Shown here one piece after another: positions 5,381 through 47,064 of a stretch of DNA of 64,000 nt (positions within the stretch are counted from its first letter, which is position 1; the number at the start of each line of letters is the position of its first letter). The DNA is from Gluconacetobacter azotocaptans. GTDB lineage: Bacteria > Pseudomonadota > Alphaproteobacteria > Acetobacterales > Acetobacteraceae. A program made the position numbers and the translations under genes. The notes beneath the pieces are model-generated. The model was not told the origin of the DNA, did no database searches, and saw only the letters and a program-made list of their open reading frames with translations. Where the stretch lies: the NCBI RefSeq assembly GCF_014174355.1, contig NZ_JABEQF010000009.1:1-64000 (forward strand), given 5' to 3'.

Positions 5381-5712
5381 TCGCTTCGAGAGTTTATCGT
5401 CATCTTTCCCGTCTGCGCATCCTGCCGCTGCTGGTCGGCATCGCCCTGCTTGCCCCCTCGGCGTCCTATGCCGCCGGGTCGAACATGCCGTGGGAGCAGC
5501 CGTTGCAGCAGATCCTGGATTCCGTGCAGGGGCCGGTGGCCAAGATCATCGCGGTGCTGATCATCATCGGCACCGGGTTGGGGCTCGCCTTCGGCGAGAG
5601 TTCCGGCGGCATGCGACGACTGATCCAGATCGTGTTCGGTCTGTCCATCGCCTTTGCCGCCGCCAGTTTCTTCCTGACCTTCTTCAACTTCGCCGGCGGT
5701 GCGCTGGCATGA
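5377..5712 (+). CDS. trbC: TrbC, VirB2-type pilin precursor
   Basis: A 111-residue precursor with a long signal sequence. A basic start is followed by a hydrophobic stretch (~16-33) and an Ala-rich cleavage region at ASYAAG. Two more hydrophobic helices (~52-72 and ~82-108) separated by a short basic loop give the pilin hairpin seen in VirB2/TrbC subunits. Processed subunits would form the conjugative pilus. The start is the ATG that overlaps the trbB stop. The longer frame running through trbB is not coding. Confidence 0.9.
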   Translation: MIASRVYRHLSRLRILPLLVGIALLAPSASYAAGSNMPWEQPLQQILDSVQGPVAKIIAVLIIIGTGLGLAFGESSGGMRRLIQIVFGLSIAFAAASFFLTFFNFAGGALA

Positions 5713-5981
5713 GCGCACTCGACGACATCCCCGGCTGGTCGGTGCCGCTGCATCGCTCGCTGTCCGAGCCGATCCTGCTCGCCGGCATTCCGCGCGGGGC
5801 GGCCATCGCGCTCGGCACCTTCGCCGCCGCCATCGGGCTTGGCCTGCAGCTCTGGCTGGCCGGCATCGCGCTCTACCTGATCGGCCATGCCGCCGCCCTG
5901 TTCCTGATCAGGCAGGATCCGCAGTTCGGCGCGGTGTTCGCGTGCCATCTGCGCGTCGCCCGCCACCATCTGGACGTCTGA
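5709..5981 (+). CDS. trbD: TrbD, VirB3-like inner-membrane protein
   Basis: A 90-residue protein with the family's N-terminal soluble patch (WSVPLHRSLSEP) followed by two membrane segments (~26-62) and a short tail. VirB3/TrbD proteins sit next to the VirB4 ATPase and help assemble the pilus base. It lies between trbC and trbE, overlapping trbC by four bases and ending two bases before trbE, the canonical order. Confidence 0.9.
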   Translation: MSALDDIPGWSVPLHRSLSEPILLAGIPRGAAIALGTFAAAIGLGLQLWLAGIALYLIGHAAALFLIRQDPQFGAVFACHLRVARHHLDV

Positions 5982-5983
5982 CC

Positions 5984-8434
5984 ATGCTGGATTTGCGCGA
6001 ATACCGCACCAGGCGGCGGGAACTGGCGGACTATCTGCCTTGGGCCGGGCTGGTCGGCCCCGGCATCGTGTTGAACAAGGACGGCAGCCTGCAACGCACC
6101 GCCCGTTTCCGCGGACCGGACCTCGATGCCGCGACGCCCGCCGAGTTGATCGCGGTCACCGCGCGGGTCAACAACGCGCTGCGCCGGTTGGGGGCGGGCT
6201 GGGCACTGTTCGTCGAAGCCGCGCGCCATGAGGCGCCCGGCTATCCGAACGGCGATTTCCCCGACCCGCTGTCCTGGCTGGTCGATGAGGAACGCCGCGC
6301 CGGCTTCGAGCAGCAGGGCGCGCAGTTCGAGACCACGCAATATCTCACGTTCTGCTATCTCGCCCCGCCCGAGCGCGCGGCCAAAGCCAGCCGGGTGCTG
6401 TATGAGCGCGACGGCGAGAGCGGCGTCGACTGGTCGGAGGTGCTGGCAGCCTTCCGCGACGAGACCGATCGCGTGCTCGATCTGCTGGCGACCCTGATGC
6501 CGGACTGTGTCTGGCTCGATGACGCCGGCACGCTGGCCTATCTGCATGGCACCATCTCCACCCATGATCATCATCCGGTCGCGGTGCCGGAAATGCCGTT
6601 CTATCTCGACGGCCTGCTGCCCGATTGCGACCTGATGCCGGGTATCGCGCCGATGCTCGGGCGCTGCCATTTGCGCACCGTGACCCTGCGCGGCCTGCCG
6701 GACAGCACCTGGCCGCTGCTGCTCGACGAGCTGAACCGCTTGCCTCTGGCCAGCCGCTGGGTGGTGCGCTGGCTACCGCTCGACAAGGCCGAGGCGCAGA
6801 AGGAACTGGGCAAGAAGCGCCGGCACTGGTGGGCCAAGCGCAAGGGCATCGCCGCCCTGCTACGCGAGGTGATCTGGCAGCAGGAAACCCGGCTGGTTGA
6901 CAGTGACGCGGAGAACCAGTCCAGGGACGCCGACGCGGCCCTGCAGGAACTGGGCTCGGACGCGGTCAGTTTTGGTTATTTCACCGCCACCGTCACGGTG
7001 TGGGACGAACGGGAATCCCAGGTGGCCGAGAAGGTCAAGCACATCGGCCGCGTCGTGCGCGGCAAGGGCTTCGTCGCGGTGGAGGAAACCCTGAACGCCG
7101 TCGAGGCGTGGCTGAGCAGCCTGCCGGGTCAATGCTACGCCAATGTCCGCCAACCGCCGGTGTCCTCGCTCAATCTCGTGCATATGCTGCCGCTCTCCGC
7201 CGTGTGGGCGGGGCCGGATAGGAATACCCATCTCGACGGGCTGCCGCTGCTGGTCGCGCGCACCGACGGCGCCACGCCGTTCCGGCTGGTGCTGCACCAG
7301 GGCGATGTCGGGCACACGCTGATTGTGGGGCCGACCGGGGCGGGCAAGTCGGTATTACTGGCGCTGATTGCACTGCAATTTCGGCGTTATTCCGGCGCGC
7401 GCATCGTGCTGTTCGACAAGGGGCGGTCGTCGAAGGTAGCGGTGCTTGCGACCGGCGGCAGCTTTCACGATCTCGCCTTGGGCGACGACACGCGCCATGC
7501 CGTGGCCTTCCAGCCGCTGGCCCGGATCGACGATCCGTCCGAGCGCGCCTGGGCGGCGGAGTGGCTCGCCACCTTGCTGACGCAGGAAGGGATCGACCTG
7601 ACCCCGGACGTGCGCGGCGCGGTGTGGTCGGCGCTGGGCAGTCTGGCGACCGCCCCACGCGTCGAGCGCACGCTGACCGGGTTTTCCGCCCTGCTGCAAT
7701 CCAACTGGCTCAAGGCGGCGCTGGAACCGTACACGCTGGCCGGTCCGTTCGGGCGCCTGCTCGATGCCGAGCATGAGGAACTGGGCGACGCCAGCATGAT
7801 GGCGTTCGAGACCGAGGATTTGCTGGGGTCGAAACACGCGGCGCGGGCGGTGCTGCTCTATCTGTTCCATCGCATCGAGCAGGGGCTGGACGGGCGGCCG
7901 ACCCTGATTGGCGTCGACGAGGCATGGTTCGCGCTCGACGATCCGGTGTTCGCGCCGAAACTACGCGAATGGCCCAAGACCCTACGCCGCAAGAACGCCA
8001 GCGTGCTGTTCTCCACCCAGAGCCTGGCCGACATCACCAACTCGGCGGTGGCGCCGGCAGTGATCGAGAGCTGCCTGTCGCGGATCTTCCTGCCCAACGC
8101 GCGGGTGATCGAGCCGGAGAGCCGCGCCGCCTACGCGCGGCTGGGACTGAACGCACGGCAGATCGAGACGATCGCCCGCGCGGTGCCGAAACGCGATTAC
8201 TTGTTCCAGTCCGTCGCCGGGTGCCGGCTGTTCGAGCTGGCGCTGGGGCCGGTGGCGCTCGCCGTGTGCGGCGCCTCGCGCGCCGAGGATCTGATGGCAA
8301 TCGACCGGGTGCTGGCCGAAGCGGGGCGCGAGCGTTTCGCGGCGGCGTGGCTGCGGGAGCGTAGTCTGCCGTGGGCGTCGGACTTGATCGAGGCCCAATC
8401 GATTCATTTCAAGAGTGAAGGAGACGCGACATGA
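5984..8434 (+). CDS. trbE: TrbE, VirB4-family conjugal transfer ATPase
   Basis: An 816-residue ATPase, full length for TrbE/VirB4, the largest energising subunit of the mating channel. The N-terminal ~400 residues are the CagE/TrbE domain. Walker A is GPTGAGKS (449-456) and Walker B lies in LIGVDEAWFAL near residue 640. I use the ATG two bases after the trbD stop because it gives the family start MLDLREYR; the frame stays open upstream, but that part overlaps trbD and is not homologous. It overlaps trbJ by four bases. Confidence 0.95.
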   Translation: MLDLREYRTRRRELADYLPWAGLVGPGIVLNKDGSLQRTARFRGPDLDAATPAELIAVTARVNNALRRLGAGWALFVEAARHEAPGYPNGDFPDPLSWLVDEERRAGFEQQGAQFETTQYLTFCYLAPPERAAKASRVLYERDGESGVDWSEVLAAFRDETDRVLDLLATLMPDCVWLDDAGTLAYLHGTISTHDHHPVAVPEMPFYLDGLLPDCDLMPGIAPMLGRCHLRTVTLRGLPDSTWPLLLDELNRLPLASRWVVRWLPLDKAEAQKELGKKRRHWWAKRKGIAALLREVIWQQETRLVDSDAENQSRDADAALQELGSDAVSFGYFTATVTVWDERESQVAEKVKHIGRVVRGKGFVAVEETLNAVEAWLSSLPGQCYANVRQPPVSSLNLVHMLPLSAVWAGPDRNTHLDGLPLLVARTDGATPFRLVLHQGDVGHTLIVGPTGAGKSVLLALIALQFRRYSGARIVLFDKGRSSKVAVLATGGSFHDLALGDDTRHAVAFQPLARIDDPSERAWAAEWLATLLTQEGIDLTPDVRGAVWSALGSLATAPRVERTLTGFSALLQSNWLKAALEPYTLAGPFGRLLDAEHEELGDASMMAFETEDLLGSKHAARAVLLYLFHRIEQGLDGRPTLIGVDEAWFALDDPVFAPKLREWPKTLRRKNASVLFSTQSLADITNSAVAPAVIESCLSRIFLPNARVIEPESRAAYARLGLNARQIETIARAVPKRDYLFQSVAGCRLFELALGPVALAVCGASRAEDLMAIDRVLAEAGRERFAAAWLRERSLPWASDLIEAQSIHFKSEGDAT

Positions 8435-9180
8435 GAAAGTTGCGGTCCCTCGCGGTTGTGATGGCAATCTCGGTCGGCGCGGGAGTGGTTGCGCCGCCGG
8501 CCCATGCCCAATGGGCGGTGATCGACAGCGCCAATCTGGGGCAGAACATCCTGACGGCGGCGCGCTCGTTGCAGGAGGTGAACAATCAGATCACCCAGAT
8601 CCAGCAATTCGTGCAGATGCTGGAGAATCAGGCACGCAATCTGACCAGCCTGCCATTCTCGACGCTGGCGCAGTTGCAGTCGTCGATGACCCAACTCACC
8701 GGCCTGATGCAGCAGGCGCAGGTGCTGTCCTACAGCGTGACGCAGCTCCAGCAGCAATTCCAGACCCTGTATCCAACCTATTCGGGCGGCAACGTCACCC
8801 AGGCCGGGCTGCTGGCCGACGCGCAGGCGCGCTGGACCGCCTCGGTTGCGAGCTATCAGCACAGCATGGCGGTGCAGAGTCAGATCGTACAGGCCATGCC
8901 GGGCGACCAGGCGCAGATCACCGCCCTCATGGGCCAGAGTCGGGGCGCGGTGGGGTCGTTGCAGGCGATCCAGTCCGGCAACCAGTTGCTCGCCTTGCAG
9001 GCGCGCCAGATGGCCGCGACCCAGGATCTGCTGGCGGCCTCCGGCCGGGCCAGTGAGGCGGATGCGATGCGCCGCGCGGAAGTGGAAAATGCCGCCCAGG
9101 CCGAATGGAAACGATTCTATGGCAATGGTGTCGGCTACACGCCTGATAGCGTCACCGTTTTCACGGGCACGACGCCATGA
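8431..9180 (+). CDS. trbJ: TrbJ, VirB5-like periplasmic transfer protein
   Basis: A 249-residue protein with a clear signal peptide: basic MRKLR, a hydrophobic core, and likely cleavage after AHA at about residue 26. The rest is mostly alpha-helical and Gln-rich (residues ~35-120), as expected for VirB5/TrbJ pilus-tip or adhesin-like subunits. It overlaps trbE and trbL by four bases each. A trbK entry-exclusion lipoprotein gene, often found between trbJ and trbL in related operons, is absent. Confidence 0.9.
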   Translation: MRKLRSLAVVMAISVGAGVVAPPAHAQWAVIDSANLGQNILTAARSLQEVNNQITQIQQFVQMLENQARNLTSLPFSTLAQLQSSMTQLTGLMQQAQVLSYSVTQLQQQFQTLYPTYSGGNVTQAGLLADAQARWTASVASYQHSMAVQSQIVQAMPGDQAQITALMGQSRGAVGSLQAIQSGNQLLALQARQMAATQDLLAASGRASEADAMRRAEVENAAQAEWKRFYGNGVGYTPDSVTVFTGTTP

Positions 9181-10526
9181 ACACCGATACGGCCGTCATC
9201 GATCATTTCCTTGACGTGTTCAGCCGTTATATCGACAGCGGCTTCGGCCTGATCGCGGGCGACGTACATTTTATCGTCGCCGTGCTGATCGGCGTCGATG
9301 GCACATTGGCCGCGCTGGTCTGGGCGCTCGGCGAGGAGGACGTGCTGCAGGCCTTCGCCAAGAAGATCCTCTATGTCGGGCTCTTCGCGTTCTTTCTGAA
9401 CAACTGGAATCACCTCGCTGGTCTGGTGTTCAACAGTTTCGCGGCGCTCGGCCTCAAGGCCACCGGTTCGACACTGAGCTATGCGGATTTCCTGAAACCC
9501 GGCCTTCTCGCTCATGCCGGTGTGCAGGGCGCCGACGTGCTGCTGGCGCAGATCCAGCGACTGGCCGGATTTCCGAACGTCTTCTGGCACATCGGCGAGA
9601 TTCTCGTCATGACCCTGTCCTGGGTGGTGACGCTGATCGCGTTCTTCGTGCTGGCGATCATGCTGTTTCTCGCCATCATCGAATTCAAGCTCACCACGCT
9701 GAAGGGCTTCATTCTGGTGCCGTTCGCGCTGTGGCGTGGCACCGCCTTCATCGCGGAGCCGGTGCTGGGGCAGGTGGTCACCTCGGGCGTGCGCATCCTG
9801 ACCTATGCCGTGGTGACGGGCATCGGCACGCAGCTCTTCACCCAGATCCTGCCGACCGATCCGGCAACGGAATTGTCGATGCAGGATGCCATCACCATTC
9901 TGCTCGCCGCCATGACCATCGCGGGGCTGGCCTTTTCCGCCAATCGCATCGCCAGCGGAATCGTCTCCGGTGCGCCACAGCTTGGGCTGGGCGCTGCGGC
10001 CGCACCAGCCGGTGTGGCGGCCGGGACGGTCATGCTGGCAGCGACCGGGGCTGGCGCAGTGGCAGGGGCGGCCGTCTCCGGTGTCGGCGCGGCCGCCTCG
10101 CTCGCCGGCGGCGCCCGCATGGCCTACACGCTCGGCAGCGCCGCCGAAGGGGGATCAGTCGCCGGTGGTGTCGCCGGAATGGCCCGCGCGGCGGGCGGTG
10201 CCGCGAGCGGCGGTCTGCGCGGCATGGCCGAGGAAGCCGTCTCCGCGCTGAAGGAACGCTACGCTGCCGGTCAACGCGGCGCCTGGACCGCAACCGGCGG
10301 GGAACCGACGTCCGGCATGGGTGAGGACGCGGCCGGCGAGGGGTTGGGCTCGTCGGCATCCTCTCCATCGTCCCAATCGTCCGATGCGCCGCCGGGCAAA
10401 TCGCCGCCCGCCTGGGCCGAGCGGCTGCGTGGCCGCACCGTGCGCAATGCCGCCGGCCGCGTCGTTCGCGAAGGCGAGGGCGGTGGTGCCGGCATGAAGC
10501 CGAACCTCAAGGGAGATAAGCCATGA
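9177..10526 (+). CDS. trbL: TrbL, VirB6-like polytopic channel protein
   Basis: A 449-residue inner-membrane protein. Its first ~300 residues hold several hydrophobic segments (for example ~30-55, ~60-80, ~140-190 and ~235-255), then a Gly/Ala-rich stretch (~260-350) and a hydrophilic Ser/Gly-rich tail. This layout is that of TrbL/VirB6, which forms part of the inner-membrane path for DNA. Low-complexity tails are common in the family. It is coupled to trbJ and trbF by four-base overlaps. Confidence 0.9.
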   Translation: MNTDTAVIDHFLDVFSRYIDSGFGLIAGDVHFIVAVLIGVDGTLAALVWALGEEDVLQAFAKKILYVGLFAFFLNNWNHLAGLVFNSFAALGLKATGSTLSYADFLKPGLLAHAGVQGADVLLAQIQRLAGFPNVFWHIGEILVMTLSWVVTLIAFFVLAIMLFLAIIEFKLTTLKGFILVPFALWRGTAFIAEPVLGQVVTSGVRILTYAVVTGIGTQLFTQILPTDPATELSMQDAITILLAAMTIAGLAFSANRIASGIVSGAPQLGLGAAAAPAGVAAGTVMLAATGAGAVAGAAVSGVGAAASLAGGARMAYTLGSAAEGGSVAGGVAGMARAAGGAASGGLRGMAEEAVSALKERYAAGQRGAWTATGGEPTSGMGEDAAGEGLGSSASSPSSQSSDAPPGKSPPAWAERLRGRTVRNAAGRVVREGEGGGAGMKPNLKGDKP

Positions 10527-11221
10527 GATGGCGACGCAGCGCTGCGCGCTATGGCGACACGCCGGTGCCGGTCACCCCTTATCAACGTGCCGCCCAGCTC
10601 TGGGACGAACGCGTCGGCACGGCCCGCGTCCAGGCCGCTAACTGGCGCCTGATGGCCTTCGGCTGCCTGGCGCTGGCGGCGATCGCACTGGGCGACGACA
10701 TCCGTGCCCGCTCGCGCTCCAGCGTCACGCCGTTCGTGGTGGAAGTGGACCGGCTCGGTGCGGTGCAGGCGGTGGCACCCGCTGCCGCCGAGGTCACGCC
10801 GGGCGACCGGCAGATCGCCGCTGCGTTGGGGCGTTTCATCACCGAGCTGCGGTCGCTGTCGATCGACCCCGTGGTGGTGCGTCAGGCGTGGCTGGCCGCG
10901 TACGCCCAGATCACCAGCCACGCCAAGCCGGCGCTGGATGCGTTTGCGCAATCCTCCGATCCGTTCGGCTCGATTGGCAAGCGGGCGGTCACCGTCGAGG
11001 TGACCAGCGTGGTGCGGGCTTCCGACCGCTCCTTCCGGGTGGAATGGATCGAGCATCCGTTTCAGGACGGCGCGCCGCTGCCGACGCAGCGCTGGTCCGC
11101 CATCCTGACCATCGTCATCCAGACGCCGCATACCGAGGCGACGCTGCGGGCCAACCCGCTCGGCATCTATGTCGATGCGATTTCCTGGGCGCGCGAACTC
11201 AGCACCGGAGAAACCCCATGA
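10523..11221 (+). CDS. trbF: TrbF, VirB8-like assembly protein
   Basis: A 232-residue bitopic protein. A short cytoplasmic N-terminus with TPYQRAAQLWDERVG is followed by one membrane helix (~45-62) and a periplasmic NTF2-like VirB8 domain, in which FRVEWIEHPF and RWSAILTIVI are recognisable conserved stretches. TrbF nucleates assembly of the core complex. It is coupled to trbL and trbG by four-base overlaps. Confidence 0.92.
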   Translation: MRWRRSAARYGDTPVPVTPYQRAAQLWDERVGTARVQAANWRLMAFGCLALAAIALGDDIRARSRSSVTPFVVEVDRLGAVQAVAPAAAEVTPGDRQIAAALGRFITELRSLSIDPVVVRQAWLAAYAQITSHAKPALDAFAQSSDPFGSIGKRAVTVEVTSVVRASDRSFRVEWIEHPFQDGAPLPTQRWSAILTIVIQTPHTEATLRANPLGIYVDAISWARELSTGETP

Positions 11222-12201
11222 TCCGTGCAATCTTTCTGTCCGCCCTTGGCGCCCTGACCCTGTCCGCCTGCGCCGAACGGCCGCCGCGCATCACCTATGA
11301 CGATCCGCGCCCGGCGCACCTGCTGTCCGACCCGCCGAGGCCGGTGCAGGTGGTGACCGTGCCGGAGCTGCTGCCCTTGCCGGGGCAGTTGAAACCGCTG
11401 CCGCCGCGCGGACGCGTGGCCAGCGGACGCGACGCCCGGGACCCGGCCGAACGGGTGCGGGTGGCCAACGCCGCCGCCGCGGTCAATCCGACCCGGGCGG
11501 GCTACATCAATGCCATGCAGGTCTTTCCCTATGACGAGGGGGCGCTGTATCAGATCTATGCCGCACCGGTGCATGTCACTGACATCGCGCTGGAGCCGGG
11601 CGAAGCGTTGCGTTCGGTCGCCGCTGGCGACACTGTGCAGTGGAAGATCGGCGACACCAGAAGCGGGGCAGGGGCGTCGCAGCAGGCACATGTGCTGATC
11701 AAGCCGGTCTCGGCCGATCTGCCGATGAACAATCTCGTCATCCTCACCGACCGACGCACCTATCATCTGGAGGTGCATCCCACCGTCGCGACCTATATGG
11801 CCGCAGTGGCCTGGCGCTATCCGCAGGACCAGTTGTTAGCATTGCAGGTTCGCAACGAACAGGCGAGTGCGCAAGCCGACAGCGTCGCCGCCGAGGGCGT
11901 CGATCTGGCGGCGCTGCGCTTTCGTTACCGGATCGCGGGGGATAACCCACCCTGGCGGCCGGCACAGGTCTTCGATGACGGCGCCAAGGTCTATATCCAG
12001 TTCCCGGCCGGGATCGCCGAGGGCGAAATGCCCCCGCTGTTCGTGGTGGGCACGTCCGGGCAGCGGGGCGAACTGGTCAATTACCGCGTGCGCGGCACCA
12101 CCATGATCGTCGATCGGCTGTTCGCGATGGCGGAGCTGCGGCTGGGGCAGGGGGCGCAGCAGATGGTGACGATCCTTCGCACGGATGGCGTCCGTGGCTG
12201 A
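11218..12201 (+). CDS. trbG: TrbG, VirB9-like outer-membrane core lipoprotein
   Basis: A 327-residue protein with a lipoprotein signal ending in lipobox L15-S-A-C18, a proline-rich linker, and a VirB9/CagX beta-sandwich domain from ~85 onward (YPYDEGALYQ-like region, VTDIALEPGEAL, LVILTDRRTYHLEV). It should form the outer-membrane ring with TrbI. The start chosen is the ATG overlapping the trbF stop, which gives the complete lipobox; a longer frame that begins inside trbF is rejected. Its last 17 bases overlap the start of trbI. Confidence 0.93.
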   Translation: MIRAIFLSALGALTLSACAERPPRITYDDPRPAHLLSDPPRPVQVVTVPELLPLPGQLKPLPPRGRVASGRDARDPAERVRVANAAAAVNPTRAGYINAMQVFPYDEGALYQIYAAPVHVTDIALEPGEALRSVAAGDTVQWKIGDTRSGAGASQQAHVLIKPVSADLPMNNLVILTDRRTYHLEVHPTVATYMAAVAWRYPQDQLLALQVRNEQASAQADSVAAEGVDLAALRFRYRIAGDNPPWRPAQVFDDGAKVYIQFPAGIAEGEMPPLFVVGTSGQRGELVNYRVRGTTMIVDRLFAMAELRLGQGAQQMVTILRTDGVRG

Positions 12202-13375
12202 GGGCGAAAATCCCGACGGCCGGCACAATGTGCCTCCGCCGCCGCCGAAGGCCGATCCGGCGCAATTCGCCCTGCGCGCGATGCCGCGACGGGTGACGCG
12301 CCTGTCGCGCCGAGTGCTGGTGCTTGGCGTGGCGGCATTGGCGATCACCACCACGGGCGCGATATGGTGGGCGCTGACCATGCACGGGATCCAGGTCGCC
12401 GGTCCGGAACTCTACAACACCGACACCAAGCCGGGAGACGCGGTGACCGGCCTGCCGGCGGGCTATGCCGGGCTGACCCGACCGCCGCCGAAGCCCGCGT
12501 CGCAACCGGTCCTGCCGACATCGATAACTCCCCCGCCGCTGCCGGGCGTGCCGGTCCAGCCCGACGCGGCGGCACAGGAACAGGCGCGGCTGAAGGCGCA
12601 GGCGGCGGGGGCCGGGGTGTTCTTCAGCGTGGCGGCGCGGCGGGACGGTGCAGCTTCGCCAGCCGGCATTCCCGGAAATGGAGAACCGCATGACGGGGAG
12701 AGCGTCGAGCCCGCGCCCGGTAACCAGGATTGCAAGGAGGCGTTTCTTGCGGGGCGGCCCAATACCGCGGTCTATGCCAGCCAGACGCTGCAGACGCCGC
12801 GCTCGCCCTATGAAGTGCTGGCCGGCAGTGTGATCGCCGCTGCCATGGTGACGGGCCTGGATTCCGATCTGCCGGGCCAGGTGATCGCGCAAGTCACAGA
12901 GGATGTGCGTGACAGCGTCACCGGCAACACCCTGCTGATCCCGCAGGGGGCGCGGCTGCTGGGCAAATATGACAGCGCCGTCGTCTATGGCCAGCAGCGG
13001 ATCCTGCTGGTCTGGACCCGGCTGATCATGCCCGACGGCAGTTCGATCGTGCTCGACAACCAGCCGGCGGCGGACCCGCAGGGTTATGCCGGGCTGAAGG
13101 ACGGGGTCGATTTTCACACCTGGCGGCTGCTGCGCGGCGTCGCGCTGGCAACGCTGCTCAACGCCAGCGGTAGCATGGGCACCGCCGGCGCGGTGTCGGG
13201 TAGTGGCAATGTCGTCGTCGCCATGCGCCAGTCCGGCGACAATGCGGCCGAGCAGGCCGGATCGCAGATCGTGTCACGCGATCTGAGCGTCCAGCCGACC
13301 CTGACCGTGCGGCCGGGCTTTCCGGTGCGGGTGATCGTGACCAGGGATTTGATTCTCAAGCCGTACAGGAGATGA
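12185..13375 (+). CDS. trbI: TrbI, VirB10-like core complex protein
   Basis: A 396-residue protein with a basic cytoplasmic N-terminus, a single membrane helix (~44-62), a proline/alanine-rich periplasmic spacer (~98-140) and the C-terminal VirB10 beta-barrel domain (from ~190, with VIAAAMVTGLDSDLPG and LLIPQGARLLGKYD). It spans both membranes and senses ATPase activity. It begins within trbG and ends overlapping the small DUF2274 gene. It is complete, so the whole core complex (TrbF, TrbG, TrbI) is encoded. Confidence 0.93.
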   Translation: MASVAEGENPDGRHNVPPPPPKADPAQFALRAMPRRVTRLSRRVLVLGVAALAITTTGAIWWALTMHGIQVAGPELYNTDTKPGDAVTGLPAGYAGLTRPPPKPASQPVLPTSITPPPLPGVPVQPDAAAQEQARLKAQAAGAGVFFSVAARRDGAASPAGIPGNGEPHDGESVEPAPGNQDCKEAFLAGRPNTAVYASQTLQTPRSPYEVLAGSVIAAAMVTGLDSDLPGQVIAQVTEDVRDSVTGNTLLIPQGARLLGKYDSAVVYGQQRILLVWTRLIMPDGSSIVLDNQPAADPQGYAGLKDGVDFHTWRLLRGVALATLLNASGSMGTAGAVSGSGNVVVAMRQSGDNAAEQAGSQIVSRDLSVQPTLTVRPGFPVRVIVTRDLILKPYRR

Positions 13376-13593: not shown

Positions 13594-13628
13594 AAGGGGA
13601 GATGACTGGCTAGGTCGTAGTAACGATT

Positions 13629-14123
13629 TTATCGGAGTATGATGGCAACGGCTGCGAGGATGACGAAGCCTCGATAGTTTGCGAGTAATTTGTCGTATCG
13701 GGTTGCGATGCGCCGGAAATGTTTGATCTTGTTGAAGAAGCGTTCGACGAGATTACGTTCTTTGTAGAGCGCCCGGTCGTAATCTCTTGGCATCTTGCGG
13801 TTCGATTTCGGCGGGATGACGGGTTCGGCTTCGATCTGGTCGATCGCGGCGCGCAGGTGATCGGCGTCATATCCCTTGTCGGCCATCACCGCGTCCGGCT
13901 CGAACCCTTCGATCAGGGCATGTGCCTGGGTGATGTCATTACGTTGTCCGGGGCTGAACAGCACACGCACCGGATTGCCCAGCGCGTCGGTGGCAACGTG
14001 GATTTTGGTGCTCAACCCGCCCCGAGATCGGCCCAGACCTTGGGCATCCACCCCCCTTTTGCGACGCGCGCCCCGGCAGCGTGCTGATGCGCGCGAACGA
14101 TCGTGCTGTCGATCATCAGCCAT
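13629..14123 (-). CDS. IS5-family transposase, second frame (orfB), reached by -1 frameshift
   Basis: Carries the C-terminal DDE catalytic region: QGLGRSRGGLSTKIH, the second Asp in VMADKGYDAD, and the Glu in YKERNLVERFFNKIKHFR. The ~23 residues upstream of QGLGRSRGG in this frame are not transposase-like. In the cell the protein should be made by slipping back one base on the A4G6 run at 14051-14060, giving one product from 14398 to 13629. Confidence 0.85.
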   Translation of the reverse strand: MADDRQHDRSRASARCRGARRKRGVDAQGLGRSRGGLSTKIHVATDALGNPVRVLFSPGQRNDITQAHALIEGFEPDAVMADKGYDADHLRAAIDQIEAEPVIPPKSNRKMPRDYDRALYKERNLVERFFNKIKHFRRIATRYDKLLANYRGFVILAAVAIILR

Positions 14124-14398
14124 TCCAGATCGGCTTCTTTCGTCAGGGCTTCAAGAAAGCCATCCAGCGCGCCACGCTCGATCCAACGGTAATAGCGCCT
14201 CTTTACAGTGTCGTAGCTGCCAAACCGCTCAGGAAGATCGCGCCAGCGTCCGCCGGAACGCGCCATCCAGAGCAGGGCGTCCACAAAACGGCGATTGTCG
14301 CAACGAGGGCCGCGCTGCCCAGCTCGGCCACCAGGGATCATATCGCGTAGCCGGTCCCACTGATCGTCACGAAGAGCGTCAATATCCTGTGCCATCAA
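14012..14398 (-). CDS. IS5-family transposase, first frame (orfA)
   Basis: A 128-codon frame holding the N-terminal DUF4096-like part (DALRDDQWDRLRDMIPGG) and the first catalytic Asp in MIDSTIVRAHQH. After VAKGG it runs off into a non-homologous tail. The homologous sequence continues in the -1 frame, so this frame alone is an incomplete transposase. The slippery run lies at 14051-14060, read on the minus strand as four A then six G. Confidence 0.85.
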   Translation of the reverse strand: MMAQDIDALRDDQWDRLRDMIPGGRAGQRGPRCDNRRFVDALLWMARSGGRWRDLPERFGSYDTVKRRYYRWIERGALDGFLEALTKEADLEWLMIDSTIVRAHQHAAGARVAKGGWMPKVWADLGAG

Positions 14399-14496
14399 GC
14401 CTGATCCTAAAAATCAGTCTTGAATCACATCCAACGCCACGGTGAGAATCCCTCATCCGCAGAAATCGTCACTACGACCTAGTGAATCACGCGTTC

Positions 14497-21353: not shown

Positions 21354-22073
21354 TCACGTATCATCCGTGCTCTCCAGGCCTTCTATCTCCTTCTGCAAAT
21401 CTGTGCGGAGCGCAGAGGCCAAGTCTAAAAAAGCCTCCAGCTTTTCGACACGTCGCTTCAAGTCTCGAACTTGCCGTTCCTTACCCTGCATGCTTTCATT
21501 CAATCGGCTGTCCAGAAAATCGCTGATCTGAACATCGAAATCTAACCCTAATCCGGCTTTGGAGGCCGCATCTGCCCACTCTAAAGCATCGTCACCAGCA
21601 TGCTCAGAGGCTTTGTCGATCCCTATATTTATCAACATCCGCGCGATGACATCGCAATTTTCTGCGAAGTTCAACCACCTCTTCGTTTCCTCATTCGCTT
21701 TCCCTACGGTGTTCGGGATCATGCGGCGGTAGAAGAGATTTTCACCCTCAGGGTTGAGTGTTCGTAACGTTTCAAGGATCGGAGCAAGCTCCTGAAATGG
21801 CTTCGAGGTGCTTGTCAGCGAAGCCCGATGCGCCCAGAGGTCAAGAATGGCAGTGGTGCATCTTTCTTTTGCAGCGTTGCTTGCGGCAGCATCTACCGTT
21901 TCGCAGTCAGTTATTAGCTCCGCGATGTGGTGCGCCATCCAGTTTGATAGGAGATCGTCATCGTCGGCCTTTAGAGCGGCGACGAGCTTGCGGCCTAGGT
22001 TTAGGATCGGATCGCACGCTGACGGGTTCTTTGTCTTCTTCGAAGAGGATGATTTGCGTGGTTGATCTGGCAT
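21354..22073 (-). CDS. small partner protein overlapping the Avs-like gene
   Basis: A 239-residue protein of unknown family. It begins with a basic Ser/Lys-rich stretch (PRKSSSSKKTK), is helical throughout, and ends with a coiled-coil-like segment (residues ~190-235: KERQVRDLKRRVEKLEAFLD). I start at the ATG preceded by GAGAAGG seven bases upstream; a start ten codons earlier is open. Its first 116 bases lie inside the last codons of the 2108-residue gene in another frame, so the two are made from one transcript and probably act together. A helper or regulator of the STAND protein is my inference from linkage only. Confidence 0.75.
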   Translation of the reverse strand: MPDQPRKSSSSKKTKNPSACDPILNLGRKLVAALKADDDDLLSNWMAHHIAELITDCETVDAAASNAAKERCTTAILDLWAHRASLTSTSKPFQELAPILETLRTLNPEGENLFYRRMIPNTVGKANEETKRWLNFAENCDVIARMLINIGIDKASEHAGDDALEWADAASKAGLGLDFDVQISDFLDSRLNESMQGKERQVRDLKRRVEKLEAFLDLASALRTDLQKEIEGLESTDDT

Positions 22074-25000
22074 CGCGCCCTTCTCTTTCTTTCCAACGGT
22101 CATATCGCGAATAGGCCATCTGCCGTTCTGCTCTTACCTCAACAATGAGGCTCATGCCGGTCTTTTTGAGAAGGCCATCAATGAGAGGAGGGTGAATTAG
22201 CAATCGTCGCCCGTGACTGTGTTGTCCATCTTCATCAGGCGATCCCTCGCTCCAAATTTCGGAAGAGAAAGCTGCCGTGCCATTCATCTGCCAAGTTCTG
22301 TCTGTTGCGTCGGGTTCCAAGCCCATCTGAGCGACAATGTTTTGAGATGGAGCAAGTGTGCGATGCCCGACGTTGGCCGCCCAAGCGTCGAATTTATCGA
22401 GCCCCTCTTCGTCACGACCAAACTCAGAAACCCATCCTTTGAGAAGGTAGTTTCCTTTCGAAAGCTCGCCGTCTTCCTCATCGGAATAGGGAAGTCGGTG
22501 GAAATATCGGTCTTCACTGTTCTGCAACGCGCGGACCAGGGCTGGAGCAGTTTCCTTTGAGACGAAAGCACTTCTGACCGATATCTCCTGCCGCCGCCTG
22601 CTTGCGTAGGCCGTCCATCGCCCTGACGCGACAACTCTCGCATCAGGGAGAAGGGAAAACCTATCCACTCGCTCATCGTCCAACGACGATGGCCAATCTT
22701 CGTCCTTCGTCGCCGATAAGGAAACGCATTCTTTGGGAGAAACATCGCGACGATCCGCCAACCAAAGTCCATCGCTTCGGGTAAGGCCTTGCGAGCGCAA
22801 CCAGCGCCGGAACGTGCGCCAATCATCGTCTGGCTCTTGGAGGTTTTCATGTAACGGATGCTCGTCGAGAAGCTTCCCTGCCAACGTCATTGTCGCGTGA
22901 TAAGATAGATAAAATTGAAGGTCATCGACGGCGCTAGCCTCTCCTCGCATACGCCTATCATTGTCTCTGAAATATTTTCGCGTGGCGCGGACATCCTTAT
23001 CGTAACGACCGTTGTCCGCGAGTCCCCAATCGTCTCTGATTATTTTTTCTGCTTCAATTTCCATCTCTGCATCAGAGATTGCAAAGGCATTGCCCAACGG
23101 GCTCAGGAAATATTTCGGAAAATCGAGACCAAAATGAAAGCGAGAGTCATCCCATTTTCTTTCTGTTGGGCGCCCCTTGCGCGCTCTGCCAAAGCTCTTG
23201 GAGTCGACAACAGGAAGCTTGGATTTGTTGATTGCTGACAGCGCATCGACTTGTTCCTGCTCTAGCAAGATTGCTTCGCTTTGATGCAGGGTCAACAGTG
23301 CCTCGGCGGCAAACGAGCGGGTTAGTACGTGCTGATTGTTTGGGGACGTTTGGTTCAGAAGGTAAGTCTTGCAGCGAGCGATGGTCGCCGGACTTTCCTG
23401 AGCTGCTCTTGCAAGGCTGATCGCAAACCACTGTACGGCATGAAGATCATAGAAGCGGAGTTCTACGTCGGCAAATGGCCCGGCCGATCTCTGGCTTGCA
23501 AACTTCATTAGATGGTCAATGACGACAGTGCGGTCGAGCGACGCCAGCATTCGTATAGAGTGAGCTGCGTTCCATCTTCTTTCTGCTGCCGGCGACCCAA
23601 GCGCCGCCCAAAGGTAGCCAGCTATCGAAGCCTCGACGGTTGATGGAGGGACGAGGTCAATCGACCAAGGACCGTCCCCATCCGATGCTTCATGTAGTGG
23701 CTCTAACAGGTTGAGTGCGTAGCTAAGAGCTTCTCTTGCCTGTTCAACTGACAGGAATGTTGCGAGTACCCCTACAAGTTGGAATAGGTCGTCTGCTCCC
23801 GAAGGCACCGTTGTCTGACCAATCGCATCGACGGCTTCTGCTAAAAGCTCCCGCACGGTGAGGCCGCTTGCTTCGCTAGCAAGTTTATGCGGAAGAGACT
23901 GGTAGTAGCGGCTCGCAGTGATGCTGAAACACTCCAAGCGATATACCTGCTTAACAAGTGCCTGAATAGCTGGGGCAACAGAGACACGGGACTCCCAGGT
24001 CGTTGGAATTGCATCCAGAAGGCCCCTAAGCTCATAGCGCTCGACTGTCCCGGAGCGAGCTAGTGACTCAAGGAAATTGGCTTCTGAGCCTGCCTTCAGC
24101 CTATCGATTGCGGCTTCATAAAACCGACTTGGATAAAACCCTCCCTCCAACTTCTTGTATCGAGCGAGGGCGTCATTCATGCTCACGGGATCGAGTAGAT
24201 CGGTTTCATTGAAGACCGTGTCCCAGTCGATTGCCTCCGTTTCTGTTGAATAGTAGGTTGTCTTGCTTCGTTGCTCCCGTTCTTCAGAGCGAGAGGCCGC
24301 CTCGATCATTTCATGCGCGATGGCCGAAGGAAATTCCAATGCGTCCAGAATTTTTCCTATTTCCCGCCAATCTGAGGCGCTTCCTCCTTTAAAGCGTGCA
24401 TAGCGGAGAAACGCTGTAGCTATCGAAGTTCGCTCGGTTTTACCGTCCGCGCCATTGAGTGCGGCTTTGAGAACTGTAAGTAAGTTCCACCAACCTCTCA
24501 TCGGCAGCAAACAAAGCGAGGCAATCGGGTCTAGGTGTCCACCATCTCGCAAGGCTTCGACAAGCTCTGGAAGAATGCGAAATTCATTTCCAAAATGTCT
24601 ATCCAGCCAACGACTTATAATCGCTGGACCGGATCGGTGGGAAAGCCCTGTTAGGGCCTCGACGGTGTGGTCCCAAGGAAAGTGTCTATCCCGTGCAACG
24701 TATTCATATGTGAGTTCAGCGGCTCGCGCGAACCGGTAAGCTGTTTCTGGATCATCCATCGGTGCCGCCGCGCTGGCACTTGCGAGATGGAGAATGGCCT
24801 CCCAGCGATGGAGGTTTTCGGAGCCAATGCGGCTCGCCACAACGATAGCCTCATTGAAATATTGTCCGGCTTCTGCTTCGCTTGATGTCAGCACGGCGCG
24901 GCAGACCGAAATTAGGCCATCGGCCTTGCTATCTGCTTCGTCTCGCTCGCCCGCGCTGAGCTTGTGGGCCTCTGCAGCGATGTCCAGAGCAAAGCCATGT

Positions 25001-28000
25001 TGGCCTAAAAAAGCCGCGCGCCTCGCAATTGCGGTGAGCGTAGGGGTGAAGAGCGGGTGCTTGAGCTCTTTGCGCCAGGCGTCGAGTTTCAGCCATTCTG
25101 CTTCTGGGGCAGCTACAGCAACGAGAATTTGGCTCCAGATGTGCGCAATCTCGTCTCCGGTTGCCGAATACTCTTCGTAAGATCGAGCCTCAGCCTGATT
25201 GGCTCGATCACGGGCCTGATCTATGGCCGCAGAAAGGTCGATGGGAATAATCTTTTTAAGTAGCCCCCCTGCCCACAGATCATGCCATGGCAATAATACG
25301 CCAATATCACGCTTATATCTTTCAGCGTCAGAGCCGTAACCACCATGCTTGCTCTTTAGCGCCTTCTTAATTTCCGGCTCTGCGGGTTCGGTGAGGTGCA
25401 CCGACCTTCCACGCAGTTTCGCCCTCAGCGAGTAAGCCCGGAGATAAGCAAGGCGCCGATCATGTTCGTGTGGAAAGCGCGTAGCTAATCCTCTGGGGGC
25501 TTCCTTTGGTATATACCGATCAAGAACCCTTGCTAGGTCTCGTCTAGGGGCGATGCGAAGCTTGGTAGCCGCAGCGACCAACTCAGAAACCGCAATCAAG
25601 CGCGTGTCCTCTCCACGCCAATCGTTCGGGGCATCTATTTTTACGTGTTTGCTCGCGAGTAAGGCCGCTGCTCGTTGAACTGCTTCTCGGGGCGGGACGC
25701 GACCAATCCCACCAAGCTCCATGGTTATTGCTAGGATGAGGCCCAAATCATTGCCGGCTTCATGCGCTAGTTCGTCAAGTTCCGTGAACCTGCCTGCATC
25801 GACCAGCCTACGAGCTAGAAGCCGCCCAACGCGAAAGGATACCTCTCTCGGCGTCCATCGTCTCAACTGCTGGGCGCATATGGCAGCGCCGTGAAGGTTT
25901 AGCTCGGCAAGCTGCAATGCCGCGATGTCTTCGTCGTCTATCGAGGTCCGGTCGAAATGATCTTCCTCTTGGCTCTTTCGCGAGCGGCTCCAATGCCCCA
26001 CCCACTCGTAAGCGAACCTAAGGCGGGAGCGAGCATCTCCAACGAGTTGCGGGCTACTCGACAGCAAGGCGGCTTCGTAGGCATGCTCGGACCCCGTCCA
26101 TGAGCCGCCAGTGATCAGCCGTCGCGAGACCTGTTCAAGGATTTGATTGGGCTCGAGGAAGCGGGCCGCGAGATCGGTATTCTGGTTTAACAGGTTTTGC
26201 TGACGTTCGTCCGTCGCTGCTTCGCCACCAGCTTTCATCGCCAACTTGATGGCTTCGAAATAGCGCTTGCTTCTTAGGGCTGCCTTGAGAGCAAATTGCA
26301 ATCGTTGAAGTTCGACATCTCGTTTCGCGATTGCGCTTCCCTGAGGAAGTGCCTCACTGGTAAGCGCCAGCGCGACGAGTTCGTCAAACAGACCCGCTTC
26401 CAACATCAAAGCAGGAAGGACAGCGGCTACGTAAGCACTCTCAACCGCGAGGGGCTTTAGTCTGGAAATGAAGGCATTCAGTTCAGTTCCAGATGGTCGG
26501 AAGCGCTGCCTGAACCAAGTTTCAGTTGGCTCATCCCTAAACTGAACCGCATCTTCACGAACGATCAAAGGTCGTTGCAAATCGTTCGCAATGCTGCGGA
26601 CAAGCTCAACGCCGACGCCTGCCGTGGCTGCAACGATTTCGAGCGGTACAAATGGTCGCAATGTCGCTAGTGCGGTACAGACAAGGTCGATTTGCTGCTG
26701 CTCATATGCAGAAACGTCCCGCGCTTTTGCTATTGCCTTCTCAAGCAATTCCTTGATGGTGTCTTCTACCGTACGAGGGGTTGGCCCGAGCTGGGCTAGA
26801 ACCTCTTGGACTGTATCTCCTACGGCTAGCGCGGCGCTTTGTACTCGAGGGTTGTGGGAGGTTAGGCGATGGAATTCCCGCACATCAGCAGGCGCTACAT
26901 CAGAAAAATGGGCACGTAATTTTGCTGCGGTTTCTGACTCTGAAAACGGCTGCAAGGTTGTCAGCTTCACCTCGGGGGGCGGCGCGAGGCTTCCCACCCT
27001 ATAGGGACGCGCAGTGAGCACCAAGCGGACGTTGGCAGGCAATTTTTCGCGTAATAGCAGGCGCGGAAAGCTCGGCCCGTCAGAAGCCTCCTGAGAAGCA
27101 GTTTCCGCGTTATCAGCAGCATCAATGACGATGAGGAGCAATCCGTCGCCGCTCTTGGTCAGTTGGTCAGCGGCTTGGCGAACGCGGCTTAAGAACGCAC
27201 GCACATAAGCGCTATCATCAGCCTTATTGGACGGTAGGAGCGGGTCACACAGCCCTGCGGACGCCATCTCGTTGACTAGCTGTACTAGGCCATCTTGGGG
27301 CCTGTGGCGATACTCACTAGCGCTCCTGTAGCCGCCATTCCCAAAGCAGTCATATACGAAGCCGAAGCTGCCGGACGGTAGTTGTCTGGCGAGCGTTGTG
27401 GCCGTGACGGACTTGCCTACGCCTCCTTCGGCTTGGATGATTATCGGATCAGCGGAAGCGATGATTGCTGCCGCGATCGAAGGCAGTTGCTCTCGCGCTA
27501 CGATTTGCTGAGGGATCTCTATAAGCGAAGGGGCGGGGAAAAGGCTATGTTCTCGTGCGTCTATGGCATCCAGAACGTCTTGGCGTCTGATTTGCGGATT
27601 ACGTTCAAATTCTGTCGTAGCCTTCCGAGTCACCAAGTCTTTGAGTTTGAGCGGCGCATCCTTGTCGCTGTCTGGGAGGTATGTTCCAAGGCCCTGTTCC
27701 AGCAGCGAGCGCTGCGTAAGATAATCGGGAACGCTCGGCATGAGGTGCACAAGCTTTGCGAAGTTCTGAAGGGCCGATCCCGTTAGGGGCAACTCCCGCC
27801 GAAAATACGCTGAACGCTTACTTTCTTGACCCTCCGCTAGATCGGAAAGGGCCTCAAATACCGTCGCAGCTATCGGCCGATTTGTCTCGAATTCGAAACT
27901 AAAGCGCTTGCCAACATCCTCAGCTCCATAGGATTCTACTAACTTTTCGTAGCGTGCCGCAAAACCTTTGAGAGTCTTCTTAAACCCGCTATCTGTCCAT

Positions 28001-28284
28001 TCCTCAGCAGCATGCAGCGTCGAATGTTTGAACTGGCGATAGGCGATTTGGGATGCTGAGCCTGGGGCCGTGCTTCCATGATAAAGCGCGAGATCAATAA
28101 CATTGAGTCCATCGGTGATTTCCTCGTCAGGCGATGTTCCCTCTATAGTAATTGCTACGAGAGAGGTTCCGAACCGTAAAATCTCAAGGCATAAACGTGC
28201 TGCGCGGAGATAATGAAATTGGTCACCATCTCTACTAGTTCGCACCAAATCCGCTTGTGATATATTTTTGACTGACGAAATCAT
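21958..28284 (-). CDS. Avs-like STAND NTPase with N-terminal nuclease-like domain (candidate anti-phage protein)
   Basis: A 2108-residue protein in three parts. Residues ~15-95 have a PD-(D/E)XK-like layout (E48, D64 in VIDLALY, Q84-F-K86 in YRQFKHS), similar to the Cap4/DUF4297 nuclease domains of Avs proteins. Residues ~255-560 are a STAND/NACHT-type ATPase: Walker A EGGVGKS (286-292), the family stretch VYDCFGNGGYR (310-320) with RHR, Walker B LLLIVIDAADNAE (382-394) and LTARPYR (423-429). The remaining ~1500 residues are helical, repeat-like and end in a basic tail, as in Avs sensor regions that bind phage terminase or portal proteins. Known Avs proteins tetramerise on phage ligand and then cut DNA. 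The assignment to Avs rests on architecture and the DCFG/RHR motifs; the subtype is uncertain. Confidence 0.8.
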   Translation of the reverse strand: MISSVKNISQADLVRTSRDGDQFHYLRAARLCLEILRFGTSLVAITIEGTSPDEEITDGLNVIDLALYHGSTAPGSASQIAYRQFKHSTLHAAEEWTDSGFKKTLKGFAARYEKLVESYGAEDVGKRFSFEFETNRPIAATVFEALSDLAEGQESKRSAYFRRELPLTGSALQNFAKLVHLMPSVPDYLTQRSLLEQGLGTYLPDSDKDAPLKLKDLVTRKATTEFERNPQIRRQDVLDAIDAREHSLFPAPSLIEIPQQIVAREQLPSIAAAIIASADPIIIQAEGGVGKSVTATTLARQLPSGSFGFVYDCFGNGGYRSASEYRHRPQDGLVQLVNEMASAGLCDPLLPSNKADDSAYVRAFLSRVRQAADQLTKSGDGLLLIVIDAADNAETASQEASDGPSFPRLLLREKLPANVRLVLTARPYRVGSLAPPPEVKLTTLQPFSESETAAKLRAHFSDVAPADVREFHRLTSHNPRVQSAALAVGDTVQEVLAQLGPTPRTVEDTIKELLEKAIAKARDVSAYEQQQIDLVCTALATLRPFVPLEIVAATAGVGVELVRSIANDLQRPLIVREDAVQFRDEPTETWFRQRFRPSGTELNAFISRLKPLAVESAYVAAVLPALMLEAGLFDELVALALTSEALPQGSAIAKRDVELQRLQFALKAALRSKRYFEAIKLAMKAGGEAATDERQQNLLNQNTDLAARFLEPNQILEQVSRRLITGGSWTGSEHAYEAALLSSSPQLVGDARSRLRFAYEWVGHWSRSRKSQEEDHFDRTSIDDEDIAALQLAELNLHGAAICAQQLRRWTPREVSFRVGRLLARRLVDAGRFTELDELAHEAGNDLGLILAITMELGGIGRVPPREAVQRAAALLASKHVKIDAPNDWRGEDTRLIAVSELVAAATKLRIAPRRDLARVLDRYIPKEAPRGLATRFPHEHDRRLAYLRAYSLRAKLRGRSVHLTEPAEPEIKKALKSKHGGYGSDAERYKRDIGVLLPWHDLWAGGLLKKIIPIDLSAAIDQARDRANQAEARSYEEYSATGDEIAHIWSQILVAVAAPEAEWLKLDAWRKELKHPLFTPTLTAIARRAAFLGQHGFALDIAAEAHKLSAGERDEADSKADGLISVCRAVLTSSEAEAGQYFNEAIVVASRIGSENLHRWEAILHLASASAAAPMDDPETAYRFARAAELTYEYVARDRHFPWDHTVEALTGLSHRSGPAIISRWLDRHFGNEFRILPELVEALRDGGHLDPIASLCLLPMRGWWNLLTVLKAALNGADGKTERTSIATAFLRYARFKGGSASDWREIGKILDALEFPSAIAHEMIEAASRSEEREQRSKTTYYSTETEAIDWDTVFNETDLLDPVSMNDALARYKKLEGGFYPSRFYEAAIDRLKAGSEANFLESLARSGTVERYELRGLLDAIPTTWESRVSVAPAIQALVKQVYRLECFSITASRYYQSLPHKLASEASGLTVRELLAEAVDAIGQTTVPSGADDLFQLVGVLATFLSVEQAREALSYALNLLEPLHEASDGDGPWSIDLVPPSTVEASIAGYLWAALGSPAAERRWNAAHSIRMLASLDRTVVIDHLMKFASQRSAGPFADVELRFYDLHAVQWFAISLARAAQESPATIARCKTYLLNQTSPNNQHVLTRSFAAEALLTLHQSEAILLEQEQVDALSAINKSKLPVVDSKSFGRARKGRPTERKWDDSRFHFGLDFPKYFLSPLGNAFAISDAEMEIEAEKIIRDDWGLADNGRYDKDVRATRKYFRDNDRRMRGEASAVDDLQFYLSYHATMTLAGKLLDEHPLHENLQEPDDDWRTFRRWLRSQGLTRSDGLWLADRRDVSPKECVSLSATKDEDWPSSLDDERVDRFSLLPDARVVASGRWTAYASRRRQEISVRSAFVSKETAPALVRALQNSEDRYFHRLPYSDEEDGELSKGNYLLKGWVSEFGRDEEGLDKFDAWAANVGHRTLAPSQNIVAQMGLEPDATDRTWQMNGTAAFSSEIWSEGSPDEDGQHSHGRRLLIHPPLIDGLLKKTGMSLIVEVRAERQMAYSRYDRWKEREGRDARSTTQIILFEEDKEPVSVRSDPKPRPQARRRSKGRR

Positions 28285-28741: not shown

Positions 28742-28929
28742 GTTGCCCAAAATTCCGCTCAGGAAACACATAGGAAACACACGGAAAGGTATTCAGGCGT
28801 AAAATTGTCGGTTCTCACTTCTGCGTGATGTGTCGGAGCAAGGTAAATTTTCCCGAGATCCCGGCGAGACGCATCCTCAGGCAAATTTCAATCCACATTG
28901 ATGAATTCGAGATCTCCCTTGATTCTAGT

Positions 28930-28949
28930 CCACATATCGGAATATGTGG
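28930..28949. promoter_or_regulatory. ArsR operator palindrome
   Basis: CCACATAT-CGGA-ATATGTGG is a perfect inverted repeat with 8-bp arms and a 4-bp spacer, ending four bases before the arsR start codon. Its place and size fit an ArsR dimer site, so arsenite should release the repressor and open transcription of arsRCB. The site occupies the expected ribosome-binding position, and repressor binding would also block the start region. Confidence 0.7.
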
Positions 28950-28953
28950 ATAT

Positions 28954-29307
28954 ATGGAAAACGAAGCAGCCCTCCAGGCGCTGAGCGCTCTGGCTCATTC
29001 TAGCCGCCTCGATGCCTTTCGGCTGCTGGTGCGTCATGAGCCGGAAGGGCTACCGGCCGGCGAGGTCGCGCGCCGGGTGGGCGTGCCACAGAACACGCTG
29101 TCCACACATCTGGCGATCCTCGCGCGCTCCGGTCTGGTCCACGCGACCCGGCAGAGCCGTTTGATCATCTATCGCGCCGATCTCTCAGCGCTTCGCGCGC
29201 TGGTTCTCTTTCTGGTCAAGGATTGCTGCGAAGGGCGCATCGATCTGTGCGCGCCGCTCATCGCTGAACTCGTTCCCTGCTGCCCGGTAGAAAAGGTGTC
29301 GTCATGA
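28954..29307 (+). CDS. arsR: ArsR-family arsenite-responsive repressor
   Basis: A 117-residue winged-helix repressor. Helix-turn-helix residues are ~34-60 (PAGEVARRVGVPQNTLSTHLAILARSG, shown as VPQNTLSTHLAIL). The helix 3 arsenic site of classic ArsR (CVC) is absent. Instead cysteines C91, C92 and C99 plus C109/C110 lie in the C-terminal part, like the Acidithiobacillus-type ArsR where As(III) binds near the C-terminus. The start is the ATG just after the operator; a longer in-frame extension upstream would run through the operator and is rejected. The stop overlaps the arsC start by four bases. Confidence 0.9.
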   Translation: MENEAALQALSALAHSSRLDAFRLLVRHEPEGLPAGEVARRVGVPQNTLSTHLAILARSGLVHATRQSRLIIYRADLSALRALVLFLVKDCCEGRIDLCAPLIAELVPCCPVEKVSS

Positions 29308-29726
29308 CCGTCACGATCTACCACAATCCCGCCTGCGGCACGTCACGCAACACACTCGCGATGATTCGAAACGCCGGGATCGAACCCACGATCATCGAAT
29401 ATCTGAAGACCCCACCGTCGCGCGACGAACTGGTCAGCCTGATCGCGCGCATGGGGAGGCCGGCGCGCGACCTGCTGCGGAGCAAGGGTACACCCTATGA
29501 GGAACTGGGTCTCGATAATCCGGCCCTGACCGACGACCAGTTGATCGACGCCATGATGGCGCACCCGATTCTGATCAACCGTCCGATCGTCGTGACCCCG
29601 TTGGGTGTCAAACTCTGCCGTCCGTCTGAAACCGTCCTCGACATCCTTCCGAAACAGCAGAAAGGCGCTTTCGCGAAGGAGGACGGCGAACAGGTTATCG
29701 ACCAGAGCGGCAAGCAGGTCGTCTGA
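29304..29726 (+). CDS. arsC: arsenate reductase, glutaredoxin-dependent type
   Basis: A 140-residue ArsC of the plasmid R773 family that reduces arsenate to arsenite using glutathione and glutaredoxin. The catalytic cysteine is C11 in [11 protein letters not shown]. The conserved basic region [18 protein letters not shown] provides arsenate-binding arginines near residues 93 and 106. It is translationally coupled to arsR (four-base overlap) and arsB (TGATG). The arsenite produced is handed to ArsB for export. Confidence 0.93.
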
Positions 29727-31015
29727 TGCTCGCTCTTGTCATTTTCGTCGTCACCCTCGTCTTCGTCATATGGCAGCCCAAGGGATTAGGGATCGGCTGG
29801 AGTGCCTTGGCCGGTGCTGCCGTTGCCCTGGCAACCGGTGTCATCCACTGGCACGATATCCCGGTCGTCTGGCACATCGTCTGGGACGCCACCTTCACCT
29901 TCATCGCCCTGATCATCATCTCGCTCCTGTTGGATGAGGCGGGGTTTTTCCACTGGGCTGCACTGTATGTCGCCCGTTGGGGGCGGGGGAAAGCGCATGT
30001 ATTATTCCCGCTGATCGTCGTGCTGGGGGCGGCAATCGCCGCGATCTTTGCCAATGATGGGGCGGCTCTGCTGCTGACGCCGATCGTGATCGCGATCCTG
30101 GCGCAACTGCGTTTGTCCCATACGGCGGCGCTGGCATTCGTGATCGCGACGGGATTCGTCGCCGATACCACCAGTCTTCCGCTGGTGATTTCCAACCTGG
30201 TGAACATCGTCAGCGCGAATTTCTTCGCGGTGCCGTTCGACCGCTATGCCGTCGTGATGGTGCCGGTGGATCTGGTCTCGCTGGCCGCGACATTGGGCGT
30301 GCTGGGGCTGTATTACCGGCGCGACGTGCCGGCCTCGTATCCCGTCGCAACTTTGCCCGAGCCCGCGAGCGCCATCCGTGACCCGCTGGTGTTCCGGGCG
30401 GCGTTCCCGCTGCTGGTGGCGCTGCTGCTCGCCTATTTCCTGACCGCGCCGTTCCATCTCCCGGTCGCAACCGTCGCCGGCATCGCCGCCTCGATTCTGT
30501 TCGCTCTCGCGGTGAAAAGTCCGGTCATTCGGGTGCGCAAGGTGCTGCATGGCGCACCGTGGCAGATCGTCATCTTCAGCCTGGGCATGTATCTGGTGGT
30601 CTACGGGCTCAAAAACGCCGGCCTGACCAATCATGTGGCGGACGCGCTGGTCTGGCTTGGCCATCGGGGCACGATTGTCGCCACGGTGGGGACGGGCTTC
30701 CTGGCGGCCCTGCTGTCGTCGGTGCTGAACAACATGCCCAGCGTGCTTGTCGGCGCGCTGTCGATCCAGCAGGCGCAGGACATCGCGCCGCTCACGCGCG
30801 ACCTGATGGTCTATGCCAACGTCATCGGCTGCGATCTGGGGCCGAAATTCACGCCGATCGGCAGCTTGGCGACCCTGCTGTGGCTGCACGTGCTGGCCGG
30901 CAAGAACTACCGCATCACCTGGGGCCAATACATGAAGGTCGGACTGGTCATCACCCCACCGGTGCTTCTGGTCGTGCTGTTGGCGCTCGCCTTCTGGTTG
31001 CCCGCAATCAGTTGA
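29726..31015 (+). CDS. arsB: arsenite efflux pump ArsB
   Basis: A 429-residue polytopic inner-membrane protein with about 12 hydrophobic segments. The family's [15 protein letters not shown] stretch near residues 108-122, and the matching [15 protein letters not shown] and [20 protein letters not shown] in the second half, show the ArsB/NhaD fold. It exports As(OH)3 or Sb(OH)3 in exchange for protons. No ArsA ATPase is encoded here, so it should act as a secondary pump. It is full length and follows arsC directly. Confidence 0.93.
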
Positions 31016-46962: not shown

Positions 46963-47064
46963 GCAAACCTGTTCTTCATCCGAAATAACATATTGAAATT
47001 AAAGAAATGTTATGGAGATTGGCCTCAAGATCCGCCCCCCCGGTGCGCATTTCCGGTCAGTCTC

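Follow-up and report, generated by a model that had tools for sequence, protein, structure and literature searches.

A very probable type 3 AVAST (Avs3) operon, avs3a–avs3b, beside conjugation genes in Gluconacetobacter azotocaptans

We analysed a stretch of 64,000 nt from Gluconacetobacter azotocaptans (contig NZ_JABEQF010000009.1, positions 1 to 64,000; hereafter the window). It very probably carries a complete type 3 AVAST (Avs3) operon, avs3a–avs3b, whose large product, Avs3a, most likely works like SeAvs3. We observed membership of the Avs3a family, collinearity with SeAvs3 over the full length, a nuclease fold in the structural model, retained catalytic and ATP-binding residues, and a partner gene. 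The features are collected in Table 1.

Table 1. Features of the window, with their positions and the evidence for each
Feature	Position	Strand	Evidence or remark
avs3a, 2108-aa nuclease–STAND–sensor protein	21958..28284	minus	PADLOC Avs3a, NCBIfam NF041816 and PDB 8dgc_A matches
Avs3a N-terminal PD-(D/E)XK (Cap4-type) nuclease domain, residues 1–250; E48, D64, Q84-x-K86	27535..28284	minus	AlphaFold2, Foldseek, conservation
Avs3a STAND/NACHT NTPase core, residues 280–462; Walker A K291, Walker B D388	26899..27447	minus	PF05729, conservation
Avs3a C-terminal sensor, approximately residues 600–2084 (approximate boundary)	22033..26487	minus	collinear alignment with SeAvs3
avs3b, 239-aa partner gene	21354..22073	minus	PADLOC Avs3b, NCBIfam NF041817
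TraG-like	1891–3879
T2SSE-type ATPase	4361–5380
TrbE/VirB4-like	5699–8434
TrbL	9177–10526
VirB8	10523–11221
CagX/VirB9-like	10888–12201
TrbI	12185–13375
DDE transposase frame	13629–14123		within 34-nt inverted repeats
ars operon	28825–31015		right of avs3a, divergent to it

The 2108-residue protein is a full-length Avs3a

The gene avs3a lies on the minus strand, where its ATG is at 28284 and 2108 codons run uninterrupted to 21958; over this interval the opposite strand, in the frame that was read, contains many stops. A sequence-only reading of this DNA had proposed the gene, without giving its strand, as an Avs homologue with a nuclease-like N-terminus, a STAND core and a long sensor, and all of these points are supported. 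The motifs that it had picked out are present: EGGVGKS (Walker A) at 286–292, VYDCFGNGGYR at 310–320, RHR at 326–328, IVIDAAD at 385–391 and QFK, the QxK motif, at 84–86.

PADLOC model PDLC02167 (Avs3a) matched residues 9–2085 with 2246 bits, covering model positions 2–2085 of 2090, and was the single match among the PADLOC profiles at E values up to 10. The NCBIfam equivalog NF041816 (Avs3a) was likewise the single NCBIfam match at E up to 0.1; its score of 2879 bits exceeded the cut-off of 2800 and the match spanned model positions 1–2082 of 2083. The only match among PDB sequences at E up to 1 was SeAvs3 of type 3 AVAST (8dgc_A; 1541 bits), with which Avs3a is collinear over residues 9–2084; past this match, some 24 further residues form a basic C-terminal tail. 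Since the matches to the Avs3a models and to 8dgc_A are full-length, chance is excluded as the source of the observation. Judged by its sequence, the protein is a full-length Avs3a, a known kind of bacterial immunity.

Pfam gave no match to residues 1–250 at E up to 1. An AlphaFold2 model of this region, built from 42 sequences (pLDDT 94.3), shows helices and strands arranged in the order of a PD-(D/E)XK core, with E48, D64 and Q84-x-K86 within or beside strands. In a Foldseek search with the model, 8dgc_A ranked first (TM 0.90, rmsd 1.5), the nuclease domains of SeAvs3 and Avs3a having a common fold with 42% identity, and was followed by Hachiman, Cap4 and Lamassu LmuA chains. Avs hits and a nuclease-fold match, the two results on which the sequence-only reading had staked itself, were thus both obtained. 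According to Foldseek, Cap4 (CBASS), LmuA (Lamassu), a Hachiman chain and HerA-associated DUF4297 have an N-terminal nuclease fold like that of Avs3a; the sensor and activation modules of these proteins differ from those of Avs3a.

The P-loop NTPase core was the one part of the whole protein that Pfam recognised, with PF05729 (NACHT; 34.2 bits, cut-off 26.7) as the sole family above its cut-off. Conservation was assessed in an alignment of 73 full-length proteins, namely that of the window and those from 72 of the 80 nearest loci described below (at the eight loci left out, the best frame was shorter than 2000 aa). E48, D64 and Q84 are kept in all 73, K86 in 72 with R in the remaining one, and K291, D388 and D391 again in all 73. 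In this alignment, the nuclease active site and the ATP-binding residues of Avs3a are intact. Relatives in which avs3a is broken into several frames (L020 and L044) or two (L013) raise the question of a decayed or inactive Avs3 copy, but here both avs3a and avs3b are uninterrupted and Avs3a has its catalytic and Walker residues, which makes such decay extremely unlikely.

Because Pfam sees the P-loop NTPase core only, the C-terminal half offers nothing to a reader looking for motifs, and the sequence-only reading had suggested that the protein was perhaps of an undescribed subtype. When residues 900–1500 were searched alone, residues 914–1499 were collinear with SeAvs3 912–1498 (E 2.5e-92); when residues 1500–2108 were searched alone, residues 1500–2084 were collinear with SeAvs3 1499–2075 (E 1.1e-108). 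By this alignment, the C-terminal half of Avs3a is the Avs3 sensor. That the protein belongs to an undescribed Avs subtype whose new sensor detects a ligand other than terminase could still be argued from the moderate identity of Avs3a to its relatives: 39.6% to the best plasmid match and about 50% to the nearest of the 72 full-length relatives. The sensor half nevertheless aligns with that of SeAvs3 end to end, the Avs3a equivalog cut-off is passed and the second gene of the operon is recognised by the models for Avs3b, and we consider this explanation very unlikely; it is the one part of the sequence-only reading that is not supported. The nearest relative among the 72 aligned, Avs3a of Bosea caraganae (L018; 49.7% identity), has avs3b next to its gene and differs from the protein of the window in half of its residues.

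Predicted mode of action

We infer the terminase trigger, the tetramer and the DNA cleavage of this Avs3a from SeAvs3. When a tailed phage infects, the C-terminal sensor would bind the large subunit of its terminase, and the ATP-bound STAND domains would assemble into a tetramer. The tetramer would bring the N-terminal Cap4-type nuclease domains together, which would then cut phage and host DNA and so abort the infection. SeAvs3 is a tetramer. Its PDB entry, 8dgc, bears the title 'Avs3 bound to phage PhiV-1 terminase' and contains four chains of one sequence. According to one published account, the nucleases of Avs1–Avs4 kill, phage and host genomes being cut after terminase, portal or Ksap1 has been sensed (PMC12931631), and another presents AVAST as a form of abortive infection that is set off by phage proteins, terminase and portal among them (PMC10286901). 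A third reports that terminase activates an AVAST system of Erwinia that has Avs1a and Avs1b (PMC12799240).

Genomic setting and origin

From left to right, the GC content of the window is 50% up to 1.5 kb, 64–69% at 1.5–13.5 kb, 53–57% between 13.5 and 28.5 kb, and 58–69% beyond that. The low-GC segment carries avs3ab and is adjoined by a tra/trb type IV secretion (conjugation) cluster at window positions 1891–13375. At the edge of the segment, positions 13603–14489 probably represent an insertion sequence or its remnant; the inverted repeats there (13603–13636 and 14456–14489) are 79% complementary. Relatives of Avs3a were found in none of the 13 other genomes of the genus that were searched, and avs3ab adds one Avs3 to the known family in a genus whose other searched genomes all lack Avs3a. 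Given the low GC content, the conjugation genes and this absence, the locus was probably acquired. We consider avs3ab to be accessory; it probably arrived together with a conjugative element or was inserted into one. The ends of such an element were not found, and the five integrase matches in the genome are all on contigs other than that of avs3ab.

Farther to the right are two long frames, of 679 aa (46960–48999, plus strand) and 1278 aa (49236–53072, minus strand), neither of which had a Pfam match at E 0.001. Long frames on the opposite strand overlap both, so that either strand may be coding.

The partner gene avs3b

A second gene, avs3b, had been missed by the sequence-only reading. It lies downstream of avs3a, on the same strand (21354–22073), as an open frame with an alternative ATG at 22103. 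Its product matched PADLOC model PDLC02168 (Avs3b) with 195.5 bits (E 3.1e-58). The score against NCBIfam NF041817 (Avs3b), 179.2 bits, was under the cut-off of 200, which was reached by none of the five Avs3b matches in a search of 398 genomes. The structural model of Avs3b (59 sequences, pLDDT 83.4, pTM 0.67) consists entirely of helices, the C-terminal one being long. All 69 sequences of at least 200 aa have glycine 27, tryptophan 45 and tryptophan 80.

The first 116 nt of the gene (21958–22073) are shared with the 3' end of avs3a and are read in the +1 frame, and no start (ATG, GTG or TTG) that would shorten the overlap occurs upstream of the conserved glycine 27. The start of avs3b lies inside avs3a, and we infer that Avs3b is co-translated with Avs3a and is a subunit of its complex. 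It is possible, if on balance doubtful, that Avs3 proper is a two-protein receptor in which co-translated Avs3b, bound to the sensor end of Avs3a, either licenses the activation of Avs3a or holds it back. When the start nearest the conserved core is taken, the overlap in the window is the longest among 73 placeable loci.

Matches were present in 19 plasmid records, of which the first- and third-ranked bear the names avs3a and avs3b. Both Klebsiella variicola pKPN692_2 and Janthinobacterium lividum p356839 have the two genes in the order seen here with overlapping ends. The Avs3a of the former, the best plasmid match, is 39.6% identical to that of the window, with an annotated overlap of 107 nt versus 116; for the latter, the identity is 36.5% and the annotated overlap 35 nt versus 116.

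Avs3a and Avs3b identities covary (Spearman 0.70 over 2346 pairs, kinship uncontrolled), as expected for a pair inherited together. The nearest Avs3a of the window (L018) is absent from its six nearest Avs3b proteins.

Pairing of avs3a and avs3b among relatives

Pairing was counted at the loci of the best 80 of 252 relatives found in genome contigs, and the count therefore applies to Avs3 proper. These 80 loci come from several phyla by record title. An avs3b frame follows avs3a in 77 of them; this number includes short or split avs3b frames (L029, L054, L055, L067 and L095) and one cut by the contig end (L021). At the three loci where avs3b is absent (L033, L045 and L072), 0, 209 and 0 bases, respectively, remain on the contig after avs3a. 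Of 74 loci counted, that of the window included, 72 have avs3b in one common register, +1 to avs3a; L029, which is a fragment, and L053 deviate from it. A common register can stem from common descent of an overlapping pair, and it indicates that the overlap is old rather than what its purpose is. Since the pairing is found at every nearest locus with enough contig, in a nearly constant register, a full account of Avs3 must explain Avs3b.

In eight relatives, the gene that follows avs3a was tested with PADLOC, and in seven it was Avs3b. The eighth, L017 from Agrobacterium (aligned with the window at 25% identity), showed no Avs3b frame in the sequence retrieved; the next annotated gene there gave a weak PtuB match. 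L007, a full-length distant relative (genome G057, 25–27% identity), likewise had no Avs3b in the approximately 1.4 kb left on the contig. These two distant relatives (about 25–31% identity) thus lack avs3b despite having room for it, so that not every member of the wider family has Avs3b; a rule that avs3b always follows avs3a fails for them. Of other loci examined, L006 and L008/L010, located at or near a contig end, had no Avs3b, and L009 gave a 37-bit match only.

In the 398-genome phylum sample, Avs3a matches occurred in eight genomes, and the one above the cut-off was that of the genome analysed here. Avs3b matches occurred in five genomes and were adjacent to Avs3a in four of these (G000, G031, G286 and G336); in the fifth, G008, the match was weak (E 7e-4) and lay inside an 870-aa frame. 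Four genomes of the sample (G057, G178, G238 and G356) had an Avs3a match and no Avs3b match; in G238 and G356 the Avs3a match lies at or near a contig end, and that of G178 has 39 bits.

At L020, L044 and L013, where avs3a is split over two or more frames, avs3b is still an open frame. Locus L004 of G336 encodes, at 784–7068, an Avs3a-like protein of 2094 aa that the Avs3a model matched only from position 223. Its first 272 residues gave no Pfam family above the cut-off, and the D64 and K86 columns are kept in the alignment; this protein may carry a divergent or another effector domain.
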